Below, piece by piece: positions 11,554-14,573 of a stretch of DNA of 64,000 nt. The position numbers and the translations under genes were made by a program. The notes beneath the pieces were generated by a model. That model was not told where the DNA came from. It worked only from the letters and a program-made list of their open reading frames with translations, and did not search any database. Every line of letters begins with the position of its first letter. Position 1 is the stretch's first letter. This stretch comes from a bacterium HR29 (GTDB taxonomy: Bacteria > Chloroflexota > Dehalococcoidia > Tepidiformales > Tepidiformaceae), in contig BEIF01000001.1 in assembly GCA_002898215.1 (NCBI GenBank), positions 905,602 through 969,601 on the forward strand. Direction: 5' to 3'.

Positions 11554-11915
11554 ACGCCCAGCGGGCCGGGTGGCCGCTGCGGGCGCTGCCCGCAGAGGAA
11601 AGTCCGGACTCCACCGGGCAGGGTGCCAGGTAACACCTGGGCGGCGCGAGCCGACGGAAAGTGCCACAGAAACATACCGCCGGGAGTTTCCCGGTAAGGG
11701 TGAAATGGTGCGGTAAGAGCGCACCGGCGTCCCGGTAACGGGGCGGCCAGGCAAACCCCACCCGGAGCAAGGCCGAATAGGGGAGGAGGGAGCCCGGCCC
11801 GTTCGCACTCCCGGGTAGGCCGCTAGAGCGCCGCAGCGATGCGGCGCCCAGAGAGATGGCCACCGCCCGCGCCGCGGCGCGGGTACAGAATCCGGCTTAT
11901 AGGCCCGCTGGGCGT
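11554..11915 (+). ncRNA. rnpB: RNase P RNA, bacterial type A
   Basis: Catalytic RNA that removes tRNA 5' leaders. Helix P1 closes perfectly over 14 base pairs between 11554-11567 and 11902-11915. The universally conserved core is present: GAGGAAAGTCCGGAC near 11596, the ACAGAAACATA region, GGTAAGGGTGAAA, GCAAACCCCACC, and the 3' signature ACAGAATCCGGCTTA near 11885-11899. The size (about 360 nt) and the extra P-helices fit type A. The 3' end stops one base short of the convergent rnhA stop codon. Confidence 0.96.
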
Positions 11916-11916
11916 T

Positions 11917-12315
11917 CTACGACCGTTCGAAGGCGAGGTTCGCCAAGGCGTCCGCTCGGCGGTTCTCCTCCCGGCGCACGTGGCTCACTCGCCATTCGCG
12001 AAACCTCCCCAGCTCCCGCATCAGCTCGTCGTACAGGGGCCGCAGCTTCGCATCCTTCACGCGGTACCGGCCCTCGAGCTGGCGCGCCAACAGCTCGCTG
12101 TCGACGCGAAGTTCGACGCTCTGGGCCCCGAGGCGAGCGGCGAGCCGGACACCCTCGATGGCGGCGGTGTACTCCGCCTGGTTGTTCGTGGCCACCCCGA
12201 GCTGCCGGCTGAGAGAGGCGAGCTCGCGCCCCTCGCTATCGACCACCGACACGCCGATGGCCGCCGGGCCGGGGTTGCCCCGGCTGGCGCCGTCGGCGTA
12301 GACGACCAGCTTCAT
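11917..12315 (-). CDS. rnhA: Ribonuclease HI
   Basis: 132-residue RNase H fold that cleaves the RNA strand of RNA-DNA hybrids. The catalytic carboxylates are visible: Asp8 in YADGASRGNPGP, Glu48 in NNQAEYTA, Asp72 in LRVDSELL, and a C-terminal Asp near 122 in ENRRADALAN. It lacks the basic-protrusion helix of E. coli RNase HI, like the short type found in many Gram-positives. The ATG at 12315 lies seven bases downstream of the recombinase-like gene stop, so both are probably on one transcript with the zinc-ribbon gene. The stop codon abuts the 3' end of the convergent rnpB. Confidence 0.92.
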   Translation of the reverse strand: MKLVVYADGASRGNPGPAAIGVSVVDSEGRELASLSRQLGVATNNQAEYTAAIEGVRLAARLGAQSVELRVDSELLARQLEGRYRVKDAKLRPLYDELMRELGRFREWRVSHVRREENRRADALANLAFERS

Positions 12316-12322
12316 CGTCGGC

Positions 12323-13738
12323 TCACGCCCGGAGGAACACCCGCACCTGGGCCCCGTCGACCTCGACCCGGTCGACGACCTCCCGCAGGGCGGCTTGGAG
12401 TTCCTCGAAGGGGAGCTGGTCCCACAGCGCCGCGAGCCGGTCGCGGAGCTCGGCCATGCGCCGGCGGCGGTCCGCTTCGTCCCGCTCGGCGGCGAGCCGG
12501 TCGCGCAGGTGACGGATCTCCGCGTCGACCTCCTGCATTTCCGCCACCACGTCCGACCCGAGAGCACGCATCCGTTCGACGGTGATGTGACCGTGGGCGG
12601 CATCGGCCACGAGCTCTTCGAGCTGGCGCTGCAGGCGGCGCCGGCGGCCTTCCAGTCGCTCGATCTGGTTCTGGAGGTCGAGCGTGAAGGCATCGGAGTC
12701 CCCCGCCCGTCGCACCCGGGTTGCCGTCTCACCGCCTTCGGCGAGCTGTTCGCGGACCTTCGCTTCCAGTTCGGCCGCGCGCTGCGTGTTGTAGTCGCAG
12801 GCGTTCTGGTTCGTGCGCGTTTCGCACTGGTAGTAGCGGTAGAGCCCGGCTCTGCGCTCCCCATCCTTCGTCATCCACGATTGCCGGCGCGAGACCCCGA
12901 TCATCCGGTTGCCGCAGCGGGCGCAATGCACGAGGCCGCTCAAGAGGAACGGCGTGACACTGCGCGCGCGAGCCTTCGCGCCCCGACGCTCCATCCGCTC
13001 CTGGACGCGACGGAAGTCCTCCGGCGAGACGAGCGCGGGATGGCTACCCGGGACCCGAACGCCGAAGCGTGAGTAGGTCCCCAGGTAGACGCGGTTGCGA
13101 AGGATGTCGCGCACGGTCACCATCGACCACCGGCCGCCCTTCCTGGTGCGGATCCCCTCCTGGTTGAGCTGGCCGGCGATACGTCGGATGCCCATGCCCT
13201 CCTGGAGGTAGAGCCGGAAGATGTACCGCACGACCACGGCCTCGTCCGGGACGAGCTCGAGGCGATTCCGCGGGCCCACGCGGTAGCCGTAGGGCGGGCG
13301 GCCCAGCACCTCGCCCCGCACAGCCTTTCGCCGCATCGCCGAACGCACACGCTCCGAGATGGGCGTGCCTTCACCTCGTTCGGCCCAAGTATCGACCAGT
13401 TGGCGGGCGGCTTCGCCCCCTGTGTCGGCCGTCACGACGCGCACTCCCAGGGCCTCGATAGCGAGGAGCTTGGCGGCGGCTTTGCCGAGATCCTTGCCGA
13501 GCACCCCGAGCGAATCGACCACGACGAGCGTGAACCCGTGGCCGGCCTGCCGGAGGTACTCCAGCATCTGGCGGAAGCCGGGAGGGTCGGGGGCGTCGAG
13601 GTCGGTATCGAGGAAGGTCGCCGCCACTTCGTACCCGTGCGCCTGACAGAATTCGAGGAAGGCGCGGCTCTGGTCGGCGATGGGACGGCGGACCCCGCCC
13701 CGCTTGGCGCCATCGACGAAGTACGCCACGGCACGCAT
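12323..13738 (-). CDS. Large serine recombinase homologue with a degenerate catalytic domain
   Basis: 471 residues with the domain order of a large serine recombinase: resolvase-like domain (1-140), recombinase DNA-binding domain (about 155-270, GRPPYGYRVGPRNRLEL, YLQEGMGIRRIAGQLNQEG, ILRNRVYLGTY), zinc beta-ribbon (CARCGNRMIG with later cysteines in YYQCETRTNQNACDY) and a long C-terminal coiled coil. The catalytic domain has lost its chemistry. The Y-x-R-x-S active site reads YFVDG, the L-x-R-L-x-R motif reads LGVLGK, and the D-R-P-G segment reads PDPPG. It sits between rnhA and a zinc-ribbon gene with 4-7 base gaps and has ordinary codon use. It therefore looks domesticated, not a recent mobile-element gene. 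DNA binding is plausible; recombination is not. Confidence 0.82.
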   Translation of the reverse strand: MRAVAYFVDGAKRGGVRRPIADQSRAFLEFCQAHGYEVAATFLDTDLDAPDPPGFRQMLEYLRQAGHGFTLVVVDSLGVLGKDLGKAAAKLLAIEALGVRVVTADTGGEAARQLVDTWAERGEGTPISERVRSAMRRKAVRGEVLGRPPYGYRVGPRNRLELVPDEAVVVRYIFRLYLQEGMGIRRIAGQLNQEGIRTRKGGRWSMVTVRDILRNRVYLGTYSRFGVRVPGSHPALVSPEDFRRVQERMERRGAKARARSVTPFLLSGLVHCARCGNRMIGVSRRQSWMTKDGERRAGLYRYYQCETRTNQNACDYNTQRAAELEAKVREQLAEGGETATRVRRAGDSDAFTLDLQNQIERLEGRRRRLQRQLEELVADAAHGHITVERMRALGSDVVAEMQEVDAEIRHLRDRLAAERDEADRRRRMAELRDRLAALWDQLPFEELQAALREVVDRVEVDGAQVRVFLRA

Positions 13739-13742
13739 CGCG

Positions 13743-14444
13743 TCAGCCTACCACGAGGATGCGCTCGCAGTTGGGGCAGCGAGCCACCCCTTCCGGAGCG
13801 CGGGCGGCGCGCCGAACCGCATCGGGGACGGTGACGTGGCAGGCGGTGCACGTACCGGCTTGGATGCGGGCCACCGCCATGCCTCCCTTCCGACGACGGA
13901 GTTCCTCGTACAGAGCGACGAGCTGCGGTGGCACGGCCGGGAGGCGGCGCTCACGCTCGGCCGCCGTGCGGTCGAGCGCCGCCTCGAGGGCGGTGCGCTC
14001 CTGGCGGAGGGCGGCCGATTCGGCCTCCCACTCCCGCTCCCGCGCCGCGAGCTCCCTCCGCGCTTCCTCCAACCGACCCTCGGCCTCCTCGACCTGGGCC
14101 AAGACGTCCAGCAGCGCGTCTTCGTGCCGGCCGCGCTGCGCCTTCAGCGACTCCACCTCGCGGGCGATGCTCTCCAGCTCTTTCGGGCTCCGCACCGAGC
14201 CGTCGTACAGCCGCCGCTCTTCGGGGACGATCTTGGCGTTCAGGTCAGCGATACGAGCCTCCTCCTCCCGCTGGCGGCGACGGAGCTCGCGCAGTTCCGC
14301 CTCACGGTCGGCAACGGCAGCGCGCGCCTCCTCGAGCGCTTCGTTGTGCGCCAAGCGGGCATCGATCGCTTCGATGCGCGCCCGAAGGCGGGCGAGTTCG
14401 TCGTCGGCAAGCTGGAGCGCTAGGAGGGCAGTCGCGTGGCTCAT
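13743..14444 (-). CDS. Coiled-coil zinc-ribbon protein (COG1579 type)
   Basis: 233 residues: a very long Glu/Arg/Ala-rich antiparallel coiled coil (about residues 5-180) followed by a C4 zinc ribbon (AGTCTACHVTVP ... VARCPNCERILVV, two C-x2-C pairs about 25 residues apart). This family is widespread, often beside RNase H genes, and is thought to bind nucleic acid or to act as an adaptor; no enzymatic role is known. The first gene of a three-gene unit with the recombinase homologue and rnhA. The ATG at 14444 has no ribosome binding site and lies one base after the predicted transcription start. Confidence 0.85.
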   Translation of the reverse strand: MSHATALLALQLADDELARLRARIEAIDARLAHNEALEEARAAVADREAELRELRRRQREEEARIADLNAKIVPEERRLYDGSVRSPKELESIAREVESLKAQRGRHEDALLDVLAQVEEAEGRLEEARRELAAREREWEAESAALRQERTALEAALDRTAAERERRLPAVPPQLVALYEELRRRKGGMAVARIQAGTCTACHVTVPDAVRRAARAPEGVARCPNCERILVVG

Positions 14445-14451
14445 GAGGCTA

Positions 14452-14457
14452 ACCCTA
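14452..14457 (-). promoter_or_regulatory. -10 element giving a leaderless zinc-ribbon mRNA
   Basis: TAGGGT on the minus strand followed by exactly seven bases and the ATG at 14444, so +1 is predicted at 14445. Confidence 0.4.
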
Positions 14458-14573
14458 GCGCAAACAGTAGCGGGACGGTGCTCCCCGCTCCAGACCGCGG
14501 GAGGCGATCGAGAAGATTTGAACGGTGGAGGGGCGATTATGACGCCTCGTGCCGAAGGGCTCGAAGGTGCGGA

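Follow-up and report, generated by a model that had tools for sequence, protein, structure and literature searches.

The window, by which we mean the whole stretch of 64,000 nucleotides analysed here, comes from a genome of the Tepidiforma-containing family of Dehalococcoidia (Chloroflexota) and carries at positions 12323..13738 (- strand) the gene for a catalytically dead homologue of large serine recombinases (LSRs). Judging from comparative sequence analysis, we consider it probable (roughly 0.58) that this 471-aa protein is an ancient domesticated, non-catalytic DNA-binding protein that reads one particular recognition sequence across the class. The assignment draws on the open reading frame, Pfam, alignment, AlphaFold models and structure matches. 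The frame runs from an ATG at 13738 to a TGA at 12325-12323, as the initial annotation had placed it.

A recombinase fold without its catalytic residues

Pfam searches of the 471-aa protein returned the Recombinase domain (PF07508, 7e-24) and the recombinase zinc ribbon (PF13408, Zn_ribbon_recom, 1e-11), and both are present in 31 of 31 aligned members. The Resolvase domain (PF00239) gave no Pfam match in the window protein, unlike several sister-family orthologues in which it was detected. Despite this miss, the resolvase fold is present at the N-terminus, since residues 1-129 of the AlphaFold model superpose on the TP901-1 catalytic domain (3bvp; Z 13.4, 3.1 Å over 121 residues). This model (31 homologues supplied, mean pLDDT 83) consists of a resolvase-like N-terminal domain, helix E, a recombinase domain, a zinc ribbon and a coiled coil, and it matches LSR structures from end to end (Foldseek 9y66, E 4e-20; VIA-align Z 18). 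The predicted model of a distant orthologue has the same fold.

All domains are encoded on the - strand. Alignment, AlphaFold and the 3bvp match place the resolvase-fold domain at residues 1-115 (13394..13738), and alignment and models place helix E and the hinge, with the conserved SERVRSAMRRKAVRGEVLGRPPYGY, at residues 116-152 (13283..13393). The recombinase (DNA-binding) domain covers residues 153-252 (12983..13282) according to Pfam, AlphaFold and conservation, followed by the zinc ribbon at residues 260-335 (12734..12961; Pfam and alignment) with C272, C275, C305 and C314 and a fixed hairpin, RRQxW / YRYYQC. The coiled coil at residues 345-438 (12425..12706) is modelled by AlphaFold as helices 348-381, 387-419 and 421-438, and its sequence has no class-wide conservation. 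Helix E is shorter than in LSRs and has a low-confidence break at 121-127 in two models, both of them single-chain predictions. As this helix forms part of the LSR dimer interface, dimerisation may be lost, and the predicted break fits a loss of the strand-exchange interface.

When aligned with 22 control LSRs, which come mostly from genomes of the same class and all have intact Y-x-R-x-S and R-x-x-R motifs, the window protein keeps Y6 and replaces R8, S10, R45, R68 and R71 by V8, G10, P45, V68 and K71. The claim of the initial annotation that the full LSR architecture is kept while the active-site serine and arginines are gone is thus borne out by Pfam, AlphaFold and this alignment. It had also read LGVLGK as a replacement of L-x-R-L-x-R; the loss of arginines stands, and the register is refined, in that LGVLGKD is the canonical D-R-L-G-R-D loop minus both arginines with the flanking L-G-D retained. 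L-G-x-D was considered as a new motif and rejected as a remnant of that loop.

The complete set of R8, S10, R45, R68 and R71 was kept in 0 of 117 aligned orthologues versus 22 of 22 control LSRs. Of these residues 48 orthologues retain none, 49 one, 18 two and 2 three, so that 97 of the 117 have at most one left. S10 together with R8 and either R68 or R71 was found in 0/117. A literal Y-x-R-x-S survives in seven of them, all seven lacking both R68 and R71. Orthologues with an intact active site at the same locus, which the initial annotation had named as grounds for discarding its reading, were absent among the 117. The residues kept differ by lineage (R8 in 50/117, R68 in four, R71 in three). 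Most simply, the ancestral copy at this locus would still have had the active-site sequence, and parallel losses would have come after the gene had been retained for another reason.

Such lineage-specific loss patterns could also be produced by a decaying mobile-element relic, or by a recombinase that works through other residues or an active partner, and we regard this pair of explanations as extremely improbable. In an A118-family integrase, S10A alone lowers recombination to <0.1% (PMC3783163), which speaks against activity. A search of the protein's own genome for a second serine recombinase as active partner found no PF00239 protein, a result that speaks against mixed oligomers with an active recombinase.

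Vertical descent under purifying selection

Strong matches to the protein were found in 137 of 285 good-quality Dehalococcoidia genomes, nearly always as a single copy. Over all genomes of the class, good-quality or not, the same search at E<=1e-60, a cut that leaves out more divergent orthologues existing below it, was positive in 156 of 345, again with almost always one copy each. Within the family nearly all genomes have the gene, contrary to an absence from all close relatives through recent decay, the other outcome that the initial annotation had set against its own reading. The relatives that carry it are Dehalococcoidia, including Tepidiforma, and in a phylum-wide sample every match beyond E 1e-60 belongs to this class. 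The next matches, from other classes, have an intact Y-x-R-x-S (L191, L193, L194), except for one whose frame contains a stop codon. All 65 orthologues tested in a tree fall on one side of a branch that separates them from LSRs (SH-aLRT 99). Dehalococcoides-type genomes and other members of the class (L171-L189, L196-L198, L200-L202, L204) are without the recombinase homologue and keep COG1579, often beside rnhA. The phage collection held no close relatives, the best phage integrases reaching ~22-30% identity, and a direct phage origin was rejected on this basis. One copy from family f7 (L038, 3746-5041, - strand) lies off the usual locus and has a rewritten N-terminus in which DRIPR, by chance or as a relic, replaces DRLGR.

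Within three genera pN/pS was 0.14-0.20, with the minimum in the recombinase domain (0.07-0.10); even the N-terminal domain, dead as it is, has low values (0.12-0.24). Distances among orthologues track those of fabD (Spearman 0.67; 0 of 499 permutations as high), with a median identity of 0.49 compared with 0.54 for FabD. Reading frames are intact in nearly all genomes and in all close strains. Taken together, the comparison of sequences demonstrates vertical inheritance under purifying selection of a class-wide single-copy gene. Decay to a relic, for which one copy from a metagenome-assembled genome (L207, G275) could be cited because of its in-frame TAA, is contradicted by the low pN/pS, the near-universal intact frames and the co-divergence with fabD; that stop codon is either an assembly error or local decay. 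Recent decay was likewise rejected given the low pN/pS, the intact frames and the presence in nearly all family genomes.

The operon and its candidate partners

The gene lies in a tight unit, as the initial annotation had described, between rnhA and a coiled-coil zinc-ribbon gene and by rnpB. The first gene of the operon (13743..14444, - strand; PF24481, PF02591) encodes a COG1579/CT398-like coiled-coil zinc-ribbon protein and is the most constant neighbour; its stop codon is 4 nt from the start of the recombinase gene, whose own stop is 7 nt from the start of rnhA (11917..12315, - strand; an open reading frame for RNase HI, 132 aa) downstream. Immediately beyond and convergent with rnhA is rnpB (11558..11915, + strand; RNase P RNA class A). 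Of 10 recombinase-bearing loci scanned, 6 have rnpB next; in the relatives scanned, rnpB and the recombinase gene share one strand. The locus is a housekeeping one with no mobile element around the gene, and the distribution of the gene is not sporadic.

The initial annotation proposed that the protein acts with RNase HI in processing R-loops or hybrids. Its adjacency to rnhA in the window and in about half of the loci would suit such a role, which we nevertheless think improbable. rnhA is directly downstream in 50 of 111 loci. The other 61 loci lack it, among them those of most Tepidiforma-type genomes, which elsewhere have distant RNase H matches at most, or none; one such genome has rnhA on another contig. 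An obligate link to rnhA was thus looked for in 111 loci and not found. Many Tepidiforma-type genomes (L071, L080, L081 and other Tepidiformaceae loci) do not have the type of RNase HI encoded at this locus. Pairing of rnhA with COG1579 is also general: in Mycobacterium tuberculosis the RNase H gene Rv2228c is in one operon with Rv2229c (PMC7466739), the M. smegmatis homologue of the latter being CT398-like (PMC5947703), and in Dehalococcoides-type genomes COG1579 and rnhA are side by side without the recombinase gene. Since the pair exists without it, the recombinase gene was either inserted into an older pair or lost from it in some lineages. Of the earlier proposal, domestication with a retained DNA-binding body is strongly supported by same-locus single-copy orthologues, purifying selection and the lack of any orthologue with an intact active site, while the part concerning RNase HI is not specifically supported.

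COG1579 itself is a closer associate: in 102 of 111 loci it directly precedes the recombinase gene, often at the same 4-nt spacing. The recombinase homologue could be the partner of the COG1579 protein in work related to RNA or translation, with the former DNA-reading surface binding RNA or a partner protein. The RNA-centred context (rnhA, rnpB and, divergently, yceD-rpmF-fabD), the recurrence of rnpB and the COG1579-family homologue HP0958, whose zinc ribbon binds flaA mRNA (PMC5947703), favour this explanation, which we judge rather unlikely. Genomes of family f2 that were tested have no PF24481, yet the recombinase homologue persists at their yceD-rpmF locus, and in family f7 the homologue is away from the usual locus without the COG1579 partner, so neither neighbour is obligatory. 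The COG1579-rnhA adjacency without the homologue indicates that the pair predates or outlives it, and the conserved positions of the protein cluster where LSRs read DNA.

Just upstream of the operon start is a leader element, GCTAGGGTTAGCC (14447..14459, - strand), a candidate operator that is conserved in the family and has one copy in the genome. Most Tepidiformaceae loci have GCTASGGTTAGCC upstream of the COG1579-recombinase operon, and it is unique in the genome even when one mismatch is allowed. The leader in this family (L071-L101, L136) often reads TTTACG, ~17 nt, a TACGCT-like hexamer and then GCTASGGTTAGCC, and another clade has a different common leader, AAGTCTATAATCC...TTGTCCA. This element could point to a narrow regulator that binds its own operon leader alone, or an att-like chromosomal site where it would block related mobile elements, but we hold either to be quite unlikely. 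No class-wide operator was found in the operon leaders, which are family-specific, distant families showing ordinary promoters alone; the element is absent from other families although they have the same recognition residues. LSR sites, at about 50 bp, are also longer than this element, and the phage collection held no close relatives among phage integrases. Autoregulation through the leader is accordingly a side role at most.

The DNA-reading surface and known serine recombinases

Conservation is concentrated in the domains with which LSRs contact DNA. At the >=90% level, 3% of positions are conserved in the N-terminal domain, 23% in the recombinase domain, 26% in the zinc ribbon and 0% in the coiled coil; the figures for the recombinase domain and zinc ribbon are somewhat inflated, because the orthologues were collected by conserved stretches of these two. 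Among 20 positions fixed in orthologues and variable or rare in LSRs, 17 are in the recombinase and zinc-ribbon domains (Y177 to L324), including R185, R210, R284, W288, R301, Q304, R308 and N310. In the A118-family integrase the att site is read by the zinc-ribbon hairpin and the interdomain linker (PMC3783163), and its DNA-contacting T288 and Y297 align with W288 and Y300 of the window protein. Integrases vary at recognition positions because their att sites differ, so positions fixed across the class suggest one conserved DNA target. Retention of the DNA-binding body, which the initial annotation had also claimed, is strongly supported by these nearly frozen positions.

On the preferred reading of a domesticated DNA-binding protein, some ancestor within Dehalococcoidia would have seen an LSR gene of a mobile element become fixed between COG1579 and rnhA, already ancient neighbours, and then be domesticated. 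With catalysis dispensable, its residues would have been lost piecemeal, different ones in each lineage. The product, now presumably expressed from a housekeeping operon, would be non-catalytic and probably dimeric, and would use its recombinase domain and zinc ribbon to bind DNA at a recognition sequence constant across the class. In Tepidiformaceae-type members the coiled coil is long and may connect two bound sites. The most likely role would be that of a chromosomal site-binding or architectural or regulatory protein. A more specific and speculative version, possible but clearly less probable, is that throughout much of Dehalococcoidia the dead LSR recognises one identical long DNA site, marking or bridging loci on the chromosome as a new nucleoid or segregation factor.

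The absence of the chemistry from every aligned orthologue together with a nearly frozen recognition surface implies that the DNA target is conserved and that the protein has a housekeeping role. Annotation names no such role, and the label would read recombinase family protein. As Tepidiforma is in culture, the question can be tested. In the literature searched, which comprised neither subscription papers nor preprints, no bacterial LSR that is both dead and domesticated was found to have been described before. To our knowledge, domesticated recombinases described in bacteria normally retain their chemistry.

The large serine integrases (A118/LI, SPbeta YokA, Bxb1, phiC31) resemble the window protein in domain order and fold, with a resolvase-like domain, a recombinase domain and a zinc ribbon with coiled coil. 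Unlike them, it has lost the catalytic Ser/Arg set and has a broken helix E in the models, and its gene is vertical and single copy, with no mobile element and a fixed recognition surface. Hin-type invertases, XisF and SpoIVCA-type proteins are alike in being serine recombinases recruited for a cellular role, and the XisF and Ccr models gave weak NCBIfam matches to the window protein. XisF and SpoIVCA keep catalysis and rearrange DNA, as do the Hin types, whereas the window protein is not expected to. In the passages found in a review of recruited mobile-element genes, the serine recombinases mentioned, Hin and excision examples that rearrange DNA, are active ones only (PMC8987985). The neighbouring gene belongs to the COG1579/CT398-HP0958-MSMEG_4306 family, whose pairing with RNase H extends to mycobacteria; what distinguishes Dehalococcoidia from the occurrence of this family elsewhere is a dead recombinase gene in about half of the genomes of the class, usually adjacent, although the pair also occurs without it.
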